In this document: in pieces, positions 1,429-32,893 of the stretch
Position numbering within the stretch: position 1 is the first letter of the stretch
How the letters are laid out: the number at the start of each line of letters is the position of its first letter
Origin: Candidatus Methylomirabilota bacterium
GTDB taxonomy: Bacteria; Methylomirabilota; Methylomirabilia; Methylomirabilales; Methylomirabilaceae
Reading direction: 5' to 3'
DNA length: 38,004 nt
Assembly: GCA_028870115.1 (NCBI GenBank)
Contig: JAGWQH010000066.1
Location: forward strand, 1 to 38,004
The notes under the pieces: generated by a model
Told to the model about the DNA's origin: nothing
Database searches by the model: none
Seen by the model: only the letters and a program-made list of their open reading frames with translations
Position numbers and translations under genes: made by a program

Positions 1429-2481
1429 TTATGGCGTTACCCAGATCCGGCCGTTCGGATCTTCCACGATTTCGCCGATGAGTGTGGCGGCGGGTGTCTT
1501 ATGCTCCCGCAGGCGCTGAATCAGGGCCGTAGTCCTGTCCTTCGGCACCGCGATCAGGAGGCCACCGGAGGTCTGGGCATCGCACAGGATCAGTTGGGCC
1601 TCGTTGCGAATCCCAGGATTCCACACGATGGCCCCTTGCAGTGATTCATAGTTGCGTTTTGTCCCGCCGGGACAGATCCCCTCTTGGATCAGATCCCAGG
1701 CCTCAGGGAGAATAGGGACCTTCGAAAGCGATACCCGTGCACCAACCTCGCTGCCCGCCGTCATCTCGTGGAGGTGGCCCAGCAGCCCAAAACCCGTGAC
1801 GTCTGTGCACGCGTGAGCGCCGACCGCCACCATAGCCTCCGATGCGTCTTTATTCAGTGCTGCCATCAGAGCTACAGCAGCATTAATTGTCGGTTCCGAG
1901 GCTTTGCCGCGCTTGATAGCCGTGGTGACGATTCCAATGCCGAGCGGCTTGGTCAACACCAGATCATCCCCGATGAAGGCGGTCGAGTTCTTGAAGATCT
2001 TCGCAGGATCGATCAGCCCGGTCACGACGAGCCCATATTTTGGCTCCGGGTCGTCGATACTGTGTCCTCCGATAATCGGGGCCCCGGCCTCGCGGGCCTT
2101 GTCGGCGCCGCCACGCAGGATGTCCCCCAGGATACTCAGCGGGAGCGACCCGACTGGAAAACCAATGATATTGAGGGCGAACAGTGGTATGGCGCCCATG
2201 GCGTAGATGTCGCTCAGGGAGTTGGCGGCGGCGATCAGGCCACAGCTATACGGGTCGTCCACCACGGGCGTGATGTAGTCCACGGTCTGGACGATCGCCC
2301 GCCCGCTATCCAGTTGGTAGACGGCGGCATCATCGGAGGTTTCTGCCCCGACTAGTATTCGAGGATCGCTATATTTCGGCAGTTGGCCCAGGACCTGGGC
2401 CAGATCAGCAGGGCTGATCTTGCACGCTCAGCCCGCCCCATGCGACAAAGACGTGAGTCGAATCTGTTGAGCACTCATCAT
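1429..2481 (-). CDS. selD: Selenophosphate synthetase SelD, itself a UGA-encoded selenoprotein
   Basis: SelD makes selenophosphate from selenide and ATP, the selenium donor for tRNA-Sec and selenouridine. Ordinary translation gives only a 284-residue ORF beginning at 2283 that lacks the N-terminus. Reading the same frame up to ATG 2481 gives 350 residues, the usual family length, interrupted by one TGA at 2428-2430. That TGA is codon 18 in the context SHGAG-U-ACKIS, exactly where Cys17 of E. coli SelD (GAGCGCK) sits, and is followed by the essential lysine (K21). The rest of the PurM-like fold is intact, including YITPVVDDPYSCG and the GGHSIDDPEPKYG region. AAGGGG precedes the start; a second in-frame ATG is at 2478. 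It lies 16 nt after the PAP2 gene, so it is probably the last gene of that operon. A true nonsense mutation is very unlikely given the position. Confidence 0.9.
2402..2420 (-). promoter_or_regulatory. Candidate bacterial SECIS hairpin in selD
   Basis: Seven nt after the selD UGA, the minus strand forms a perfect 8-bp stem AGAUCAGC/GCUGAUCU with a 3-nt loop. If the top pairs open, the loop is GCCCUGC, with G first. A C-G and a G-C pair can extend the base across one A-G mismatch. Position and size fit the SelB-binding hairpins placed just downstream of bacterial Sec codons. The function is inferred. Confidence 0.6.
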
Positions 2482-11044: not shown

Positions 11045-11557
11045 CTATTCCTTTGCCCCGGCTTCCTTGAGGATCTGCACGACCTCGTTCTCGCTCCTGT
11101 TATACGCGATCATCATGGCCGTGACGCCGTTGTTGGTTTTGGCATTCACATCCGCGCCCTGCGCGAGCAGTACCCGGACGACCTCGCAATGGCCTTCCTG
11201 AGACGCCCATATCAAGGCTGTTGCGCCATTATCCTGTCTGGCGTTTACATCCACGCCCTGCGCGAGCAGTACCCGGACGACATCGAGATGGCCTGCCAGA
11301 GACGCTCTCATCAAGGCCGTCCAGCCCTCGTTCGATTTGACGTGTACCCAGGCGCCCTGCGCAATCAGCGCCTCTACGACCCCGACATGGCCTCTCAGAG
11401 ACGCTCTCATCAAGGCCGTCCAGCCATACTCATCTCTGGCGTTCACATTCGCGCCCTTGGCGATCAGCGCGTGCACAGCTTCCGGGCGGCCTTCCTCGCA
11501 TGCTCTCATCAAGGCCGTTTTGCCGTGCTTGTCTGCGGCGTTCACATCATCGCTCAT
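11045..11557 (-). CDS. Ankyrin-repeat protein
   Basis: A 170-residue protein built almost wholly of ankyrin repeats, probably a protein-protein interaction module. About five repeats can be read, each with the pattern (G)xTALMRAxxxGHxxVVxxLLAxGAxVNA; examples are GKTALMRACEEGR, GWTALMRASLRGHVGVVEAL and GVTAMMIAYNRS. There is no signal peptide or extra domain. The frame stays open further upstream to 11710, but ATG 11557 has AGGAGG at ideal spacing and gives a protein that starts in the first repeat. The ATG overlaps, as ATGA, the stop of a short ankyrin-like frame just upstream (11554-11649). The gene sits outside the att repeat at 11763. Binding partner unknown. Confidence 0.8.
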   Translation of the reverse strand: MSDDVNAADKHGKTALMRACEEGRPEAVHALIAKGANVNARDEYGWTALMRASLRGHVGVVEALIAQGAWVHVKSNEGWTALMRASLAGHLDVVRVLLAQGVDVNARQDNGATALIWASQEGHCEVVRVLLAQGADVNAKTNNGVTAMMIAYNRSENEVVQILKEAGAKE

Positions 11558-11649
11558 GATCGCCCCTCCTTCGCGCCCTGCGCAATCAGCGCCTGTACGA
11601 CTTCGCCATAGCCTTCCTGAGACGCTCTCATAACCCTGGTCTTCCATCC
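11554..11649 (-). pseudogene. Broken upstream ankyrin repeat in another frame
   Basis: In a second minus-strand frame, GWKTRVMRASQEGYGEVVQ followed by ALIAQGAKEGRS reads as one clear ankyrin repeat and stops at TGA 11554, overlapping the ATG of the next gene. It lines up with the repeats of that gene and would be the preceding repeat if a frameshift or small deletion had not separated them. Upstream of it the frame carries no ankyrin character and runs into the tRNA relic at 11763. Alternatively the two frames are translated by coupling through the ATGA overlap. Confidence 0.5.
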
Positions 11650-11762
11650 CTCCCCAGAAGGCGTCAGTCGCATTGAAGAGAGCAGGCATGACGTTTCTCG
11701 GTATTGACAAGTCAACAGCAACCGGCCCCGGAGCGGAGAAGGCAGCGAATTATCGGAAACCA

Positions 11763-12673: not shown

Positions 12674-13060
12674 TCAACGCCTTCCTCTCAGATGCAGTTC
12701 GTCTTTCCCACAAAAAGGACACGTGCCTTTCTCCTGATACCAGCGCCTCGCCGATGCCTCCAGGGTCCGCCATGCTGCCTCTGCTCCGACTTGTTTTTCA
12801 ATCAGGTCGATCTCTCGATGAAGCGCCTTGAAGGTCTCCAGGGGGTCGGTCTCGGGTAACGTCCAGTAGGTCCGGTACAGGTCGGCCAGCGCATCGCACG
12901 CGTGAAGCAGCGCCATCACCTCCGTCTTGTGCGTACTCAATCTCGCCTTCAGTTCTGACGGGACCTGGGGCCTCCCAGTCGCTTGCAGCCTGCCATCCGG
13001 AAGAGGGGTCAGGGTGACGCCAGCCGTTCGCGCCTCTTGAATTAGCTCCGCCGCCATCAT
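12674..13060 (-). CDS. TubC N-terminal docking-domain-like protein with zinc knuckle
   Basis: A 128-residue protein. Residues about 3-50 (ELIQEARTAGVTLTPLPDGR, LQATGRPQVP, LKARLSTHKTEVMALL) match the TubC_N docking fold, which in many bacteria sits next to island or plasmid primases and not only in peptide synthetases. The C-terminus has a CPFCGKDELHLRG knuckle. The middle is helical. ATG 13060 overlaps the primase stop as ATGA, and GAGGAGG lies ten nt upstream, so this start is preferred over the GTG further up. The coupling to the primase suggests a helper role in island replication; the role itself is not known. Confidence 0.65.
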   Translation of the reverse strand: MMAAELIQEARTAGVTLTPLPDGRLQATGRPQVPSELKARLSTHKTEVMALLHACDALADLYRTYWTLPETDPLETFKALHREIDLIEKQVGAEAAWRTLEASARRWYQEKGTCPFCGKDELHLRGRR

Positions 13061-14985
13061 AGGACACACACCTCCTCGCCCGCTAAGATGGTCATCTCAT
13101 GCCTTAGATGGTCATCATTTTGAATGACCACCTTAGACGCCTTTTGGCCATCTAAGGACCAGAACCACTTCCCGCCTTCGCCAAACGTGTCACGTTTCGA
13201 GGTTGCTCCTGCATAATGTTTTGCTCTTTGGAGTGTCTTCTCGGCAATCCCTGCCTCCCGCGCCACCCGCTGAATTTGCCTTACTTCCACCGGGCCTTTC
13301 TTCAGGATCGAACGGAGGAAGTCTGCCGCATCTTCCATCGCCGACCGCTCCTCTTCGGATACCGGGGCAGCAAGCAGGGCGTCAGCACTATGAGATGAAA
13401 CCCCCTCCCACACGATGCGGGCCGTGTCGTCTATGGCAACCACACGAAACGCCAGGGACTCCGGCATACGCGCAAGATTCGTCTTAATTCCCGCCAGGAT
13501 TCGCCGCTCCTCGTTCTCCGGGTCCTTGGCTACCAGCAACGCCATCCGCGCCGCGCCGACAATCCCGATACTCCCCCCGCCGCGATAGATGCTTTGACTA
13601 CCGCCAGACTTATTCAGATGTCGGATCACAAGCACCGCGACGCCGTTCTCCTCCGCCATCTTGGCTAATGGCGCCAGGGCTTGCCTTACGTCTTGATCTC
13701 TCCAACTGTTTCGTTGACTTGGCAGGTAGGCCATCAGGGGGTCGATGAGGACGATCTTTGCCGCGACTTGTTGACATGCACAGGTTAGCGCCGCTATGTC
13801 TTCTACTGTAGGCACTCTCAGCTTCCCATCCGCACCTTTCACCCCCTGGAGCGCGACAATCTTCGCCAGGTCCGCACCGGCAACCGTGAGCCGGGGGACC
13901 ACCGTATCGGCCAGGCCGTCTTCGAGTGTCAAGATCACCGCCCCGCCTGGAAGCGACGGCGAACCGTCCGGCATTAGAGAACCATTGGACACCCGCGCCG
14001 CCAGGTCAAACGCCAGCGTCGATTTGCCAAGGCCAGGATCGCCATCCAGCACGGTCAGTTTTCCCAACGGAACCCGACCGGGCCATAGCCAGGTCACAGG
14101 TTCAGGCTGTACGTCTGCGAGTCGAATAATAACCGCATCGTTAGGTTTCTCTCGCTCTGCTCCGCCGGCCGCCGACTCTTGCCGGTCCGCTCCGCCGGTC
14201 GCCGCAAACTCCGGTCGGTCAGGCTGTTCGTAAGCGTGCGCGACGATCTTCTCGATCTCCGCGTCAGGTAGTAGAGGCTCACACTTCATCTCGTTCTCTT
14301 TGAGTAGGGCGGCGAGAATGGCGTCGGGGCTCATATTACGTGCCTTGAGGCTTCGTGCCAGCTTGTACAGTTCGGTATTTCGCTCGCCCTCGGGAATTCT
14401 CTCCGCGATGGTGAACCGCTCGCCGTTGCCGGTCGCTGTGGCGTGCCGCATCAATGCCAGGACACCCTCGGGTAGGTCAGCAATCCTAGACGGCTCCAGC
14501 ACATAATCAGGATCTTCTCGATACCGAGGGGTGGGTGGCGCGAGAGCGTAGCCTTTGACAAGGAGGTCCACGCCGCATGGTTTGACGCAGCCGCACTCTC
14601 GGGCCGTCACGATCCGGACCTTTCGGTCCACCTCATCACACTCAACGCTCGGGGGCATACGAAAGTAATCGTGAACACCATGCGGAGTGTAGACGCGAGC
14701 TGTTCGTGGCACCGACACGCCGGTGGATCGCCAGGCTTGTTCGGCATGGGGGCCGTCGAAATCCATCACCGCGAGAGTGGACGCGGGCCACAATAGCAGC
14801 GCGAGGCCGTGGGCCGGGCGCGAGAAGAGTTCCTTGACCGCGCTTTCTGTCTGACCACCATACCGCCACTGTCCCCATTCACAGAGCGGTTGCTTGTGGT
14901 CGTTGACGGGAACCACCGGCGCTCCCCACATCTGCCGGTAATCCAGCGCCGCGTCAAGCAGTGTTGTTGTCGCCGTCCCGCTCAT
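13057..14985 (-). CDS. Primase-polymerase fused to RepA/RecA-type helicase
   Basis: A 642-residue replication protein of an integrative element. The N-terminal part (about 8-190) is a bifunctional primase/polymerase domain: GAPVVPVNDHKQP, the LAVMDFDGPHA acidic motif and VYTPHGVHDYFR histidine motif. A primase C-terminal-like helical linker follows (about 195-265, ERNTELYKLARSL). The second half is a RecA-fold ATPase of the RepA/AAA_25 type with Walker A GDPGLGKST, Walker B KIVLIDPLMAYL and VLVIRHLNKSGGS. A C-terminal winged-helix region is likely at 565-620. It overlaps the AlpA-like gene upstream and the TubC-like gene downstream by ATGA junctions. It probably starts replication of the excised island. 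Confidence 0.82.
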   Translation of the reverse strand: MSGTATTTLLDAALDYRQMWGAPVVPVNDHKQPLCEWGQWRYGGQTESAVKELFSRPAHGLALLLWPASTLAVMDFDGPHAEQAWRSTGVSVPRTARVYTPHGVHDYFRMPPSVECDEVDRKVRIVTARECGCVKPCGVDLLVKGYALAPPTPRYREDPDYVLEPSRIADLPEGVLALMRHATATGNGERFTIAERIPEGERNTELYKLARSLKARNMSPDAILAALLKENEMKCEPLLPDAEIEKIVAHAYEQPDRPEFAATGGADRQESAAGGAEREKPNDAVIIRLADVQPEPVTWLWPGRVPLGKLTVLDGDPGLGKSTLAFDLAARVSNGSLMPDGSPSLPGGAVILTLEDGLADTVVPRLTVAGADLAKIVALQGVKGADGKLRVPTVEDIAALTCACQQVAAKIVLIDPLMAYLPSQRNSWRDQDVRQALAPLAKMAEENGVAVLVIRHLNKSGGSQSIYRGGGSIGIVGAARMALLVAKDPENEERRILAGIKTNLARMPESLAFRVVAIDDTARIVWEGVSSHSADALLAAPVSEEERSAMEDAADFLRSILKKGPVEVRQIQRVAREAGIAEKTLQRAKHYAGATSKRDTFGEGGKWFWSLDGQKASKVVIQNDDHLRHEMTILAGEEVCVL

Positions 14986-15158
14986 TCCCGCGCCTCAGTT
15001 CGATTGTCGGCGACGAAGCGCTCAAAATCCTCCTCCTTGACCTTCACCAGCCGGCCTAGACGCACAACCGGGATTCGCCCTTTCGCAATCCACGTGCGCC
15101 ACGTATAGCGTGATGCCCCTGAACGCTGCTCCAATTCCTCCACACTCAGTAATCGCAT
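14982..15158 (-). CDS. AlpA/excisionase-like helix-turn-helix protein (58 residues)
   Basis: A small MerR-like winged HTH protein. It starts MRLLSVEELEQRSGASRYTW and continues RTWIAKGRIPVVRLGRLVKV, the pattern of AlpA and excisionase family proteins that bind at att sites and control integrase. AAGGGG precedes ATG 15158, and its TGA overlaps the primase ATG as ATGA. It is the first gene of the minus-strand island operon and shares an intergenic region with the divergent integrase operon, so it is well placed to act as a switch between integration and excision. The gene is short but strongly supported by motif and position. Confidence 0.75.
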   Translation of the reverse strand: MRLLSVEELEQRSGASRYTWRTWIAKGRIPVVRLGRLVKVKEEDFERFVADNRTEARE

Positions 15159-15277
15159 TGCCGCCCCTTTCGTGAAAAGTTCTAGTTCGTTGTTTCGCTC
15201 GATACGAATCTACGGTTAGCGCATACAATTGTCAATAGGCTAACATAATATGATTAGCGTTATTGTAATATATACCC

Positions 15278-15306
15278 TTGACAAGTGAATGCGACTAACA
15301 TATATT
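15278..15306 (+). promoter_or_regulatory. Strong sigma-70 promoter for the zinc-finger/integrase operon
   Basis: A perfect TTGACA, a 17-nt spacer and TATATT. Transcription would begin near 15313, which rules out the upstream in-frame ATG at 15289 and supports 15337 as the start codon. The region around it (15159-15336) is markedly AT-rich and lies between divergent operons, as expected for a control region. Confidence 0.75.
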
Positions 15307-15336
15307 GAGTGCACACACGTACAAGGGGGTGGACAT

Positions 15337-16017
15337 ATGCTGAATGCACAAGAACGAATGCAGTTCGTGGTAGGCTTCGCCGGGATGGACCTTGACCGCC
15401 TCCGTCCAGGGGACTGGTCGAACCTCCGGGATGATTTCACGCGCTACCTACATGGCCAGCAGGGGGAGCAAAGCCCGGCGCACGGGCCGGTCCATTTCTC
15501 CACCTTCGAGCACCTGCCCTCGAAACCCTACACGGAGGAAGATTTCCGTCAGCTCCAGGGTGCCGTGCAGGCTATCCTGCACAACGTGGTCGACACTCGG
15601 AGGATGAGGCCAGGCCAGCAGGTTCACGCGCCTCTCACCCCCCTCCAGATCAGATGCCGCCTGCTCCCACTCGATGCCATAGGACTGAAGGGGAAAACGC
15701 ATCTCGGAGTCGATGGGCCAGCCCGGGATGTCTTCCTTTTGAGCGTCTTTTTGCTGTTCGCGTATGAGAAGACCGGGAAGATCGGCCAGTGTCCCGCCTG
15801 TCACGCGCTCTTCTTACCCGTGAAGAAGCAAGCGTACTGCTCGAAACGCTGTCAAATGCGGGTCTACATGCAGCAACGCCGCCAGCAGGAGCACGTCAAG
15901 GAGCAGCAAGCCGAGCAGGCACACGCCCGATATGCCAACACGCGCAAGCGCCAGCTTTCAGAAAAGGTCTATGTGGCTAGACGGCCACGGGCCAAGAAAG
16001 GAGGGACAACCCGATGA
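15337..16017 (+). CDS. Zinc-finger island protein upstream of the integrase
   Basis: A 226-residue protein whose C-terminal third has a treble-clef-like zinc site: CPACHALFLPVKKQAYCSKR and then CQMRVYMQQRR, with a CxxC and a YCSxRC pair. This pattern occurs in CGNR-type and similar zinc fingers. A charged, glutamine-rich helical tail follows (HVKEQQAEQAHARYANTRKR). The N-terminal half has no domain I recognise. AAGGGGGTGG precedes ATG 15337. The stop overlaps the integrase ATG, so the two are translationally coupled. A DNA-binding regulatory or recombination-accessory role is plausible. Confidence 0.7.
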   Translation: MLNAQERMQFVVGFAGMDLDRLRPGDWSNLRDDFTRYLHGQQGEQSPAHGPVHFSTFEHLPSKPYTEEDFRQLQGAVQAILHNVVDTRRMRPGQQVHAPLTPLQIRCRLLPLDAIGLKGKTHLGVDGPARDVFLLSVFLLFAYEKTGKIGQCPACHALFLPVKKQAYCSKRCQMRVYMQQRRQQEHVKEQQAEQAHARYANTRKRQLSEKVYVARRPRAKKGGTTR

Positions 16018-17069
16018 GCGTGTTCAAACGCGGGGAGTTTTGGTGGATTGACTTTTACGATGCGAATGGGGATCGCCGGAGAAAGAAGGTCTCACCCGAT
16101 AAGCGGATCGCCACCGCCACACTCCGGGATATTCAGGTCAAGATCACAAAGGGGGAATACCTGGGGCTCAAGGAAGAAAACACCAGCTTCCGTCAGTTTG
16201 CGGCGAAGTATTGGGCCGCCGTGTCACACACCTTCTCTGCTCAAGAGCAGGACCGTGCCCGACGGATTCTCGATCAGCACCTCATCCCCGCCTTCGGAGG
16301 GGATCGCCTCAGCCGGATCACCCGCCAGCAGATCGAACACTACATGGCCGAACGAGCGGGACAAGTGCAAAACTCTACTGTGAACAAAGAGCTTGTTCGT
16401 CTCAAGCATCTGCTCAATTACGCGGTGGCCTGGGGGTTGCTGAAAGCGAACCCCGCGAAGGGTGGGAAGAACGGAATCAAGCTTCTGACGGTCCCTCCCG
16501 CTAAAGCTACGTATCTTGTCCCCGAGCAGGTGGAGCGGTTGTTTGAAGCATGCGGACGGCATTCGATGGGGCTCTGGGCCATTGTCACCCTCGCCATGAA
16601 TACGGGGATGCGCCGGGGGGAAATCCTGACCCTTACGTGGGCCGATGTCGATCTTCGCGCGAAGCACGTCACACTGGTCAGAACGAAGAACAACGAGAGC
16701 CGGATCGTCCCGCTGAATGCCGATGCAACGCGGGCCGTGGAAGCCCTCCCACGGGGGGGCGATCCGTTCACCCTGGTCTTTGCAGGATGGACGGGGGCGG
16801 CGCTCACCATGGCGTTTCATCGCGCGTGCCGCCAAGCTGGGATCGCCAACTTTCGTTTCCACGATCTCCGCCACCATGCGGCAAGCTGGTTGACCATGAA
16901 GGGTGTCAATCAGCGAACGATTGAAGCAATCTGTGGGTGGAAAGATCCGAGAACTGCTCGGAGGTATCAGCATTTGAACACCGCCGCGCTCCATGAGGCG
17001 GTCGCACGCCTTGCCACGGCCTATGATATGAGGGATGCTCAGCCGGTGGCTGAGGCTCAACGGCCATAG
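16014..17069 (+). CDS. Tyrosine recombinase/integrase
   Basis: A 351-residue phage-type integrase that should catalyse insertion and excision of the island at tRNA-Glu. It has an N-terminal arm-binding-like domain (FWWIDFYDANGDRRRKKV), a core-binding SAM-like domain (about 60-150) and the catalytic domain (about 165-335). The catalytic residues are all visible: R200 (NTGMRRGE), K225 (RTKNNES), H283-x2-R286 (FHDLRHH), W309 in place of the second His (ICGWKD, common in this family) and nucleophile Y318 (RRYQHL). It overlaps the upstream zinc-finger gene by ATGA. It appears full length and functional. It lies near the middle of the att-bounded segment rather than next to an end. Confidence 0.93.
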   Translation: MSVFKRGEFWWIDFYDANGDRRRKKVSPDKRIATATLRDIQVKITKGEYLGLKEENTSFRQFAAKYWAAVSHTFSAQEQDRARRILDQHLIPAFGGDRLSRITRQQIEHYMAERAGQVQNSTVNKELVRLKHLLNYAVAWGLLKANPAKGGKNGIKLLTVPPAKATYLVPEQVERLFEACGRHSMGLWAIVTLAMNTGMRRGEILTLTWADVDLRAKHVTLVRTKNNESRIVPLNADATRAVEALPRGGDPFTLVFAGWTGAALTMAFHRACRQAGIANFRFHDLRHHAASWLTMKGVNQRTIEAICGWKDPRTARRYQHLNTAALHEAVARLATAYDMRDAQPVAEAQRP

Positions 17070-20432: not shown

Positions 20433-20477
20433 TTGGCGTCCCCAACGGGATTCGAACCCGTGTTTCGGCCTTGAAAG
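20433..20477 (-). repeat. att repeat within intact tRNA-Glu
   Basis: These 45 bp, identical to 11763-11807, cover the tRNA from the anticodon loop through the T arm, the acceptor 3' strand and the encoded CCA, plus one base. Being inside the complete tRNA, this copy restores gene function after integration. Confidence 0.8.
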
Positions 20478-20510
20478 GGCCGCGTCCTGGGCCGGCTAGA
20501 CGATGGGGAC
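20434..20510 (-). tRNA. tRNA-Glu (anticodon UUC)
   Basis: The minus strand folds as a full cloverleaf. The acceptor is GTCCCCA with TGGGGAC, followed by a discriminator G and an encoded CCA. The anticodon stem is CGGCC/GGCCG around the loop CTTTCAA, which places TTC at positions 34-36. The T arm is ACGGG-TTCGAAT-CCCGT. The length is 77 nt. This gene is the integration target of the island to its 3' side. Confidence 0.95.
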
Positions 20511-29474: not shown

Positions 29475-30350
29475 TTAGATCAGCCGGCTTCTGAGGTAGG
29501 CGCTGAGGGAATCGACGGCCGTGACGATCAGGTAGATTGCGAAAATCAAGGTCAACAGCCGGTGCTCTAAGAAGAGGCTGATGGCGATCTGGATCTGTTG
29601 GCCCAGTCCCCCGGCCCCCACGTACCCGAGGATCACCGCCTCTCGGATGTTCACCTCCCAGCGGTACAGGGTGTAGGCGACGCATTCCGGCAGAACCTGG
29701 GGGAGGATGCCGTAGAACAGAATCTGCAGTCGGCTGGCGCCGGTCGCCTGTAACGCCTCAATTGGCTGGATTTCGACGTTTTCCATCACCTCTCCAAACA
29801 GCCTCCCCAGGACGCCGCCCGTATGAATTCCCAGAGCGAGCATCCCTGGGAATGGGCCGAGGCCGATTGCGAAGACCAGGATCAGCGCCCAGACAAGATG
29901 GGGGATGGTTCGAAGGAGATTAAGAGCGGCCTTGGCACTGAGGTACAGGATGGTCCGGAGCGCTCGAGCCCACGGACGGTGCCGCTCCATCTCAAATAGC
30001 AGCCCGGTGAACATAAGATTACGACTGGAGAAAAAGACCAGGCCGAAAGCGATCACGATCGCTAGGATCGTCCCGAGAAACGACATGGCGAAGGTCTCGA
30101 GAATCCAGTAGCCGGCCTTAAGCAGGAAGTCTTTGGATAGATCAGGCGGAAAGAGCTTCTTGGTGTAGGTCAGGATCTGGACTGCACTCTCGCCGCCTAG
30201 AAGGCCGCGTAGCGAGAACTCCGTTCCCACATAGCTCCAGACTATGAGGGCGAGGAAGCCTGCCAGGAATATCAGATTGGGGGTGGAGAGAAGATCGCGC
30301 CTCTTCGCTTCCGCAAGAGCCGAGGCCTGCGTAGGAGTGTGTGCCATCAA
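29475..30350 (-). CDS. ABC transporter permease, PhnE type (second permease)
   Basis: A 291-residue inner-membrane permease with about six helices. It carries the PhnE-type EAA loop EALQATGASRLQILFYGILP and the preceding GRLFGEVMENVEIQP, with AHTPTQASALAEAKRRDLLS as cytoplasmic N-terminus. It begins at ATG 30350, overlapping the stop of the other permease by ATGA, so both are made from one message and probably form a heterodimer. It is the last gene of the importer operon and converges with the selenoprotein relic. The homologous family includes phosphonate, phosphite and proposed selenate importers; the substrate is decided by the binding protein. Confidence 0.85.
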   Translation of the reverse strand: MMAHTPTQASALAEAKRRDLLSTPNLIFLAGFLALIVWSYVGTEFSLRGLLGGESAVQILTYTKKLFPPDLSKDFLLKAGYWILETFAMSFLGTILAIVIAFGLVFFSSRNLMFTGLLFEMERHRPWARALRTILYLSAKAALNLLRTIPHLVWALILVFAIGLGPFPGMLALGIHTGGVLGRLFGEVMENVEIQPIEALQATGASRLQILFYGILPQVLPECVAYTLYRWEVNIREAVILGYVGAGGLGQQIQIAISLFLEHRLLTLIFAIYLIVTAVDSLSAYLRSRLI

Positions 30351-31234
30351 CCGCGCTCCCGGCCAAGAATCGCGCCTCTCACCCTCGCGCTCAAGGCATC
30401 AACCCCCGCCACCATCACGAACAGGATGGCGATCAGGGTGGTGACCTGGTTAAAATTAAACATCCGCATTGAGATCTCAAGCTGCTGGCCGATCCCCCCC
30501 GCACCCACGAAACCCAAAATCGCCGATGCTCGAATAGCACACTCCCAACGATACAGGGTGTAGGACACCAGATTCGGCAAGGACTGTGGCAACAGGCCAT
30601 AGAGAAGGATGGTGAGCCGCGAGGCCCCAGTCGCCTGGAGCGCTTCCAGAGGCCCAGGATTCACATGCTCCAGGATCTCCGAGTAGACCTTCCCCAGCAT
30701 TCCCGCGTAGGAGATCGCAATGGCCAGGACACCGGGGAACGGTCCCAGTCCGACGGCTCGGACAAACATGAAGGCCCACACGAATTCAGGGATGGTCCGG
30801 AATAGGCTGAGGAGCGCCCTGGCCAGCAAATATGATCCCCTGTGGAGCATTGCTCGCGGGCGAGAGCCGGCCAGCTCTCGTTCGTACAGAATGCCTTTGA
30901 AGGTGAGCGAGCTTGTGGCAAGGAGGCCAAGGGGAAAGCCGAGGACTACGGCGATGACGGTTCCCATCAGGGAGATCTGAATAGTTTCCAGGATCGGGCG
31001 ACCCAGCAGACTCAGGAAGTTCCAGGATAGGTCTGGAGGGAACATGCCCATGACGAACTTCCAGATGTTCCGGCGTCCCTCAGACTCGAAGAGCAGCAGT
31101 GGCTTCACCTGGGCAAGCTTATAGCTTCCCAGGAACGTCAGAACAAACAGGACGGAACAGACGATCTGGAAGGTAGAGAAGCGCCTAGCTGGTAAGGTGA
31201 GGCTGGCAGGAGTAGAGGGAACGTTGCTCTGCAC
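30347..31234 (-). CDS. ABC transporter permease, PhnE type (first permease)
   Basis: A 295-residue membrane permease paralogous to the next gene, with the EAA loop EALQATGASRLTILLYGLLP and GKVYSEILEHVNPGP before it. The frame is open up to ATG 31300, but that start has no ribosome site and would overlap the ATPase gene by 116 nt. GTG 31234, with GAGGAGG nine nt upstream, is preferred; the overlap is then 50 nt. Two permease genes in one operon is a frequent arrangement in this transporter family. Confidence 0.85.
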   Translation of the reverse strand: MQSNVPSTPASLTLPARRFSTFQIVCSVLFVLTFLGSYKLAQVKPLLLFESEGRRNIWKFVMGMFPPDLSWNFLSLLGRPILETIQISLMGTVIAVVLGFPLGLLATSSLTFKGILYERELAGSRPRAMLHRGSYLLARALLSLFRTIPEFVWAFMFVRAVGLGPFPGVLAIAISYAGMLGKVYSEILEHVNPGPLEALQATGASRLTILLYGLLPQSLPNLVSYTLYRWECAIRASAILGFVGAGGIGQQLEISMRMFNFNQVTTLIAILFVMVAGVDALSARVRGAILGRERG

Positions 31235-32003
31235 GGATGGGGGCCTCCTCTTCGGCTGCCTCGGTCTGACTTCCGGCGTATAGCGCTGCCAGATGGTCAT
31301 CTGTCACCGCTGGGGCGGCCAGATCGAACGACGTCTTTCCATCCTTTAGCCCGATCACTCGGGGGAAATGGGCCAGCGCCAGATCAACACTGTGGAGGTT
31401 CATGATGAGGGTTTTGCGGGTCGTCTGGCTCAGCTCGATCAGCAACTTGACGATTCCGGCGGCCAGTGCGGGATCCACTGAAGAGACCGGCTCGTCGGCC
31501 AGGATCACCTCTGGATTCTGTACCAGCAGGCGGGCAATGGCGACCCGCTGCTGCTGGCCGCCTGACAGGGTCTCGGTCCTGTCGTACAGCTTGTCGGCGA
31601 TGCCGACCTGTCTGAGCGCTGTAGAGGCGAGATTGACCTCCGTCGGTCGGATCAGGGATCGCACTGCCTGCCAGATTGGCCAAGTCCCGAGTTTGCCAGC
31701 AAGCACATTGTGAATAACCTGCAAGCGAGGGATCAGATTGTGTTGCTGGTAGATCGTTCCGATCCGGCGTCGGACCTCTCGCAACCGCCGTCCGGACAAG
31801 TGGCTGATGTCCAGTCCATCGAACGACAGGCTGCCAGAGGTTGGAGGGATCGTGAGATTCAACATCCGGAACAGGGTCGTCTTGCCGGCCCCGCTTGGGC
31901 CGATCAAGGCCACCCGCTCGCCCTGGTGGATCTTCAGATCAAGCTCGTCTACGGCGACGATCCGGCCGGCGAATACCTTGGAGACTCGATCAAGCAGATA
32001 CAT
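31185..32003 (-). CDS. ABC transporter ATP-binding protein, PhnC type
   Basis: A 272-residue ATPase that powers the importer. Walker A is GPSGAGKT (residues 35-42), the Q-loop is IYQQHNLIPRL, the signature is LSGGQQQR (146 onward) and Walker B is VILADEPVSSVDP (D170-E171). The sequence around the Q-loop is typical of PhnC. The C-terminus extends about 30 residues past the core, into the region that overlaps the first permease gene. The ATG lies 14 nt after the binding-protein gene. Confidence 0.9.
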   Translation of the reverse strand: MYLLDRVSKVFAGRIVAVDELDLKIHQGERVALIGPSGAGKTTLFRMLNLTIPPTSGSLSFDGLDISHLSGRRLREVRRRIGTIYQQHNLIPRLQVIHNVLAGKLGTWPIWQAVRSLIRPTEVNLASTALRQVGIADKLYDRTETLSGGQQQRVAIARLLVQNPEVILADEPVSSVDPALAAGIVKLLIELSQTTRKTLIMNLHSVDLALAHFPRVIGLKDGKTSFDLAAPAVTDDHLAALYAGSQTEAAEEEAPIRAEQRSLYSCQPHLTS

Positions 32004-32017
32004 GAGTTCCCATGGCG

Positions 32018-32893
32018 CTACTGAAGCAGCCCGGCGGCGATCGCTGCCTCTTCGGCCGGCTTGAACTGCTCGACCTTGACGCGGACGTATCCCTTCGTTC
32101 GCTGAAGGTCCATCAATGTTCTATCCGCGGGATTGTTATAGTTCAGCTTGGTGAAAGCAGTGGCAATCTTTTCTACGAGGGCGCTGTCCAGATCGCCCCG
32201 TACGGTCCAGACATAGTCGATGTAAGGGGGTGTCGTCCAAAAGACCTGCACCTTGTTTGGATCGACCTTCTTGGCCTGAACGAGCTTATCCCACACCGCT
32301 TCGTTTAAGGCTCCGGCGTCCACCTTTCCGCTCTCCACCCACAAGACCGTGGCGTCATGAGCCCCGCTGAAGCTGAATTTGGCGAAGTCTTTTTCTGGGT
32401 CGATGCCTTTCTGCAGCAGGAAATAGCGTGGCATGAGGTGACCTGATGTCGAGCTGACACTTCCAAACGAGAAGGTCTTGCCCTTCAAGTCAGTCAGGGC
32501 CTTGATACCGGTTTCCGGCCTGGTGATAAATTTGCTGTGAAAGCGCAGGTCCTCCTCCCGGCTCACCACCGGAATCGCATTGCCGGTCCGCCTCCGAGCT
32601 TGGACAAAGGTGAACCCACCATACCAGACCAAGTCGAGTTTCTTGGCCGCCAGGGCTTCGACGGTCGCGGCGTAGTCCACTACGGGATAATATCTGACCG
32701 GGATGCCCAGCTCTTTACTCAGATATTCAGCGAAGGGCGCGTAGATCCGCATCAACTCAGTGGGATTCTCGTCCGGGATAGCCGAAACCCGTAGCTCCTT
32801 CGGTGTTTCAGACCAGGCAGGACTGAGTAATCCGAGGCTTACCACTATAGCTACCACACTTGATAAGCCGACATAAATCCATCGACGACCCAT
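32018..32893 (-). CDS. PhnD-like periplasmic binding protein, possibly for selenate
   Basis: A 291-residue exported binding protein with an N-terminal signal peptide (about 1-28, ending SPAWSE). The mature protein begins LRVSAIPDENPTELMRIYAP and has DYAATVEALAAKKLDLVWYG then GFTFVQARRRTG, FSFGSVSSTSGHLMPRYFL and GALNEAVWDKLV. These blocks place it in the PhnD-type family. The SAIPDExPTEL and GGFTFVQAR blocks recall the subgroup annotated as putative selenate ABC transporter binding proteins rather than phosphonate PhnD. No phn lyase genes are near, while selD and a selenoprotein gene are in this window, which fits selenium uptake. The ligand remains an inference. AGGGA precedes the ATG; it is the first gene of the operon. 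Confidence 0.8.
   Translation of the reverse strand: MGRRWIYVGLSSVVAIVVSLGLLSPAWSETPKELRVSAIPDENPTELMRIYAPFAEYLSKELGIPVRYYPVVDYAATVEALAAKKLDLVWYGGFTFVQARRRTGNAIPVVSREEDLRFHSKFITRPETGIKALTDLKGKTFSFGSVSSTSGHLMPRYFLLQKGIDPEKDFAKFSFSGAHDATVLWVESGKVDAGALNEAVWDKLVQAKKVDPNKVQVFWTTPPYIDYVWTVRGDLDSALVEKIATAFTKLNYNNPADRTLMDLQRTKGYVRVKVEQFKPAEEAAIAAGLLQ

Follow-up and report, generated by a model that had tools for sequence, protein, structure and literature searches.

A predicted selenocysteine-containing SelD of Candidatus Methylomirabilis and a possible two-hairpin insertion signal behind its UGA codon

Selenide, water dikinase (SelD) that itself contains selenocysteine (Sec) is well documented, as excerpts of several papers make clear (PMC4561486, PMC1794560, PMC13188914); it is among the commonest bacterial selenoproteins, and the arrangement is already well known. 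The idea of its autoregulation is old: Guimaraes et al. 1996, as cited in PMC8659212, pose it in their title. Sec insertion at the UGA of Escherichia coli fdhF amounts to 30–40% and needs sufficient selenium, according to an excerpt of PMC4513850. The published model of the bacterial SECIS element (bSECIS), as excerpted from PMC13188914, has a G among the first two bases of the loop, a loop of 3–9 nt, a stem of 4–16 bp, 16–37 nt from UGA to loop and a minimum free energy (MFE) of −7.5 kcal/mol or lower. The Methylomirabilota are already known as Sec-using, because the same paper mentions a MAG of this phylum with 63 predicted selenoprotein genes (PMC13188914). A literature search for Methylomirabilis together with selenocysteine found no paper title on selenoproteins of this genus.

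Methylomirabilis is a nitrite-dependent methane oxidizer, and the selD locus described here lies in a 38,004-nt stretch of DNA (the window) that is one whole contig of a 2.81-Mb, 122-contig assembly. The locus shares with the known Sec-SelD/SPS2 genes the family (TIGR00476), the position of the catalytic Sec, a bacterial SECIS within the coding region and the presence of selA, selB and selC in the genome, and differs from them only in the organism and in a two-hairpin layout after the UGA. The features concerned are the following.

1429 to 2478, minus strand: selD coding sequence, predicted Sec-containing selenide, water dikinase; conserved start ATG 2478, ATG 2481 also possible
2428 to 2430, minus strand: in-frame UGA, predicted to be read as Sec (U18, counted from ATG 2481), at the catalytic position of GAG-U-ACK
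2421 to 2427, minus strand: 7-nt spacer between the UGA and hairpin 1
2402 to 2420, minus strand: hairpin 1 (H1), 8 bp, loop CCU; outside the published bSECIS rules, under RNA-level selection
2385 to 2401, minus strand: hairpin 2 (H2), 7 bp, loop GUC, 33 nt from UGA to apical loop; probable SECIS core

The initial annotation had observed that the visible SelD frame lacks its N terminus and that reading the TGA as Sec restores a complete enzyme, and both observations held on translation. Standard translation (table 11) yields no longer frame than one of 284 residues from GTG 2283, whereas positions 2481–1429 of the minus strand, with TGA as U, give 350 residues with one read-through codon and the motif GAG-U18-ACK. 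The Met conserved among relatives within the genus is the second one (ATG 2478–2476), and the product is likely to start there and to have 349 residues. The protein scores 402.1 bits against TIGR00476 (cut-off 125; profile positions 1–310 of 311), and its closest named SelD records, with identities of up to 87%, come from Candidatus Methylomirabilota or Methylomirabilis. The best PDB match is 3u0o, which we take to be E. coli SelD (E 2.5e-85; residues 2–347 aligned, nearly end to end). This closest solved relative has the same fold family and the GAG-x-x-C-K loop but carries Cys, where the Methylomirabilis enzyme has Sec: U18 aligns on the catalytic Cys of the GAGCGCK motif of 3u0o. The catalytic Cys or Sec and the Lys at +3 are both essential in SelD, and the alignment places both in the N-terminal loop of this protein, for which the predicted activity, as a family member, is the formation of selenophosphate from selenide and ATP.

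Elsewhere in the window, positions 13057–17069 encode a primase/helicase-like protein (Prim-Pol, AAA_25, PriCT_1) and a tyrosine-type phage integrase, likely an integrated element. Positions 29475–32893 hold a phosphonate-type ABC transporter with a binding protein (PF12974, 244.6 bits), an ATPase frame recognized by eye and a pair of frames for permeases, one of which was profile-tested. An ankyrin-repeat protein (Ank_2; 11045–11710) and a tRNA-Glu (ttc; 20434–20510) are encoded on the minus strand.

A Cys codon misread through an error of sequencing or assembly, a reading that the 122 contigs of the assembly might favor, has a negligible probability and is refuted by independent assemblies. 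Of 60 related genomes, our own included, 59 carry a TGA-type selD (a match with one internal TGA), among them 15 of 15 of the genus, 14 of which have the TGA independently of this assembly; this distribution rules out both an error of sequencing and decay of the copy. The sole exception (G024) is 63% complete and shows only paralogues, and in one other genome (G018) selD is split across two contigs. The codon itself was read in 30 identified loci, the remaining genomes being scored by their in-frame stop count. TGA was read in 28 of 29 relatives' loci (the 29th is a Cys copy), in locus L001 and in 67 of 79 further typed loci. Over the 109 of 110 selD loci that could be typed (L057 ends before the motif), Sec and Cys pair at this position among the homologues, with 96 TGA and 13 TGT or TGC codons.

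Three of the Cys-type enzymes, from Nitrospirae-labelled MAGs (L030, L033, L035), are 56–57% identical to this Sec enzyme and likely reflect Sec/Cys exchange. Locus L125 (1489–3723, minus strand) has a 744-residue frame that joins an N terminus resembling, by eye, a NifS-type cysteine desulfurase to a Cys-type SelD; its genome (G028) also has a TGA-type selD and is listed with 7% contamination. NifS-SelD fusions are known, as excerpted from PMC4561486.

Were the UGA a real stop, the gene would be a pseudogene or would yield a shortened SelD initiated internally, for example at GTG 2283. The 284-residue frame is compatible with such a reading, which we nevertheless hold to be very improbable: the product would lack its catalytic residue and the Lys at +3, the TGA is conserved in the 59 genomes, and the codons preceding it are under purifying selection. 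The pN/pS ratio is 0.30 over the 17 codons before the UGA, 0.06 just after it and 0.21 over codons +18 to +180, so that purifying selection acts on both sides. Nor does the genome offer another selD, despite the presence of selA, selB and tRNA-Sec. The initial annotation had allowed for a second selD with Cys and decay of this copy, but selD is single; the two other matches are distant paralogues (E 7e-6 and 6e-5), and no Cys-type backup was found in the 122-contig assembly.

The search for the Sec machinery that the initial annotation had suggested recovered every component above its cut-off. The genome encodes SelA (596.2 bits, cut-off 267.9), SelB (385.8 bits, cut-off 242.25; beta-barrel and two winged-helix domains) and a tRNA-Sec (65.9, cut-off 47) for which ARAGORN gives the anticodon tca (UCA), the set expected of a bacterium that makes selenoproteins. 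Taken together, the conserved TGA, the single gene copy, the complete selA/selB/selC set and the purifying selection flanking the UGA strongly support the claim that this SelD is itself a selenoprotein. The locus is very probably a functional selD of Candidatus Methylomirabilis (NC10), its catalytic Sec inserted at UGA 2430–2428 by the organism's own SelA, SelB and tRNA-Sec; a two-hairpin signal may assist the insertion.

Another gene of this genome resembles subunit B of formylmethanofuran dehydrogenase (FwdB; contig C65, 3588–4907, minus strand, L135 and L137; TIGR03129, 527.6 bits versus 327.8) and has an in-frame UGA at the metal-ligand position (HTSSV-U-HGP), and a Cys paralogue (HTSSV-C-HAP; L134) lies on contig C103. 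FwdB has been described in methanogenic archaea (excerpt of PMC13188914). Copies of this type bearing TGA are present in 6 of the 15 genus genomes, one of these copies being partial and counted without reading. The FwdB-like Sec gene of the genus carries a single hairpin (GGU loop, about 18 nt from the UGA), so a pair of hairpins is not the general pattern in this genome; measured against synonymous versions, the FwdB hairpin shows no significant gain in stability (z +0.2 to −1.6). The one full-length FdhA that the search of the genome yielded has Cys (CARLCHSP).

Two hairpins follow the selD UGA. H1, AGATCAGC-CCT-GCTGATCT (2420–2402), begins 7 nt past the UGA and has eight Watson-Crick pairs; H2, GGCCCAG-GTC-CTGGGCC (2401–2385), which the initial annotation had left unmentioned, is perfect as well and abuts H1 without a gap. 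Counted from the U of UGA as 0, they occupy offsets 10–28 and 29–45. One perfect hairpin is by itself mildly unusual, since 241 of 20000 random 43-nt pieces from this window contain one of at least 7 bp. When the isolated region of this gene alone is folded, a competing fold pairs the UGA itself. Rfam gave no match in 2200–2600 at E up to 1; to our knowledge most bacterial SECIS elements are not covered by Rfam.

To separate RNA structure from protein demand, we compared each gene with synonymous-codon versions drawn from its own codon usage with the protein unchanged, a null that assumes codons to be independent and, clustering aside, genes to be unrelated. Over 84 distinct Sec genes the mean folding energy was −6.86 against −2.58 in the null for H1 (Z −19.8) and −10.32 (offsets 28–47) against −3.61 for H2 (Z −25.5). 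The 13 Cys-type genes gave no such signal at either hairpin (H1, −1.88 against −1.31, Z −1.4; H2, −0.64 against −0.72, Z +0.3), although offsets 3–50 taken as one stretch, which singles out neither hairpin, yielded Z −3.5 for them and −17.9 for the Sec genes. Among 35 divergent representatives (<65% identity) H1 and H2 retained Z values of −10.0 and −11.9, compared with −2.8 to +0.1 in 12 control windows of the same genes, and the single-gene 5% limit was passed by H1 in 15 and by H2 in 20 of the 35. Both hairpins are thus selected at the RNA level beyond protein demand in Sec genes and not in Cys genes.

The pairing is firmer in H2. All seven of its pairs are present in 62 of the 84 genes (6.39 of 7 kept on average, 4.39 expected from synonymous codons), its middle pair varies among G-C, C-G and U-A with the stem maintained, and its loop starts with GU in 83 of 84. 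H1 is found in two registers, in which the offsets of paired bases from the UGA sum to 38 or 42; 26 of 84 genes have all eight pairs of the first and 26 of 84 at least four of the second. Fixed pairs in one register gave Z 7.2 with a median single-gene p of 0.40, and a longest-helix test that accepts either register found at least 5 bp in 51 of 84 genes against 27.7 expected, a weaker result than that of the energy test. The predicted fold shows both hairpins in 61 of the 84 genes, H1 only in 6, H2 only in 4 and neither in 13. A set of 16 chosen genes has 91.7% of cells paired under the two-hairpin structure (H1, 84.4%; H2, 100%), versus 25–38% when the structure is slid. RNAalifold returned H2 but not H1 for 16 chosen sequences, a miss that we attribute to the two registers of H1.

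The initial annotation had pointed to the perfect 8-bp hairpin just 3′ of the UGA. This hairpin, H1, is real, perfect and conserved; as the insertion signal, it falls outside the bSECIS rules. Its CCU loop, at 15 nt from the UGA, has no G at either of its first two positions and falls short of the 16–37 nt of the model, whereas H2 agrees with the rules for loop (GUC), spacing (33 nt) and stem (7 bp); for the energy limit of −7.5 kcal/mol, the figure available is the 84-gene mean for H2 given above, which is not the value of this gene alone. That H1 is nonetheless the SECIS element, with H2 incidental to the conserved peptide DLAQVL, would fit the position of H1 nearest the UGA and its perfect pairing in this gene, but it is improbable in view of these rules, of the near-invariant GU of the H2 loop at its distance of 33 nt, of the larger excess of H2 over the synonymous-codon null and of its recovery alone by RNAalifold. 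H2 is therefore most likely the SelB-binding SECIS core, and H1, for which loop and spacing depart from the published rules, is probably not that core.

The fdhF SECIS has an apical loop with GU and one continuous stem. The selD signal would share with this E. coli type a coding-region hairpin past the UGA and the GU in the apical loop, but its core hairpin stands 33 nt from the UGA, behind another complete hairpin. We found no description of a two-hairpin selD layout in a literature search of partly available sources, the original bSECISearch paper lying outside that search, and the layout is possibly a new element.

In the mechanism that we propose for this insertion, SelB would bind the apical GU(N) loop of H2. 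The 7-nt spacer presumably puts H1 where the mRNA enters the ribosome while the UGA occupies the A site, and one option is that H1 would hold the ribosome there; alternatively, by folding out 19 nt, it could bring H2 close enough. In the first role H1 might act like the SRE/HRE hairpins of eukaryotic SPS genes, stem-loops near the Sec UGA that disfavor termination, as excerpted from PMC4561486; those genes also have a SECIS in the 3′ UTR, and the likeness suggested here is one of function. Extended to the selD mRNAs of many phyla, a two-part Sec signal, in which H2 is a SelB core unusually far from the UGA and H1 a separate, conserved entry-site hairpin that stimulates decoding or brings H2 nearer, is a reading we advance tentatively, with our doubts slightly outweighing our confidence.

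Because the chain would end after about 17 residues without Sec-tRNA, the output of SelD would be tied both to the enzyme's own product and to the supply of selenium; no Cys-type selD that could start the loop was found in this genome. Autoregulation by selenium, which the initial annotation had proposed, would follow as a logical consequence. A further use of SelD, in supplying tRNA selenouridine, was rejected for this genome, which has no match to TIGR03167 (selenouridine synthase).

Methylomirabilis thus appears to have a complete Sec system in which the enzyme that makes selenophosphate is itself Sec-dependent, with no Cys-type copy to fall back on in this genome. If the proposed two-part signal is correct, it could tune the selenium level that is required before SelD is made, a built-in switch on the first step feeding all other selenium use. 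Were the two-hairpin layout functional, a second class of bacterial SECIS would have to be set beside the simple one-hairpin kind, and the tuning of a feedback loop through a recoded stop codon could be tested directly in selD.
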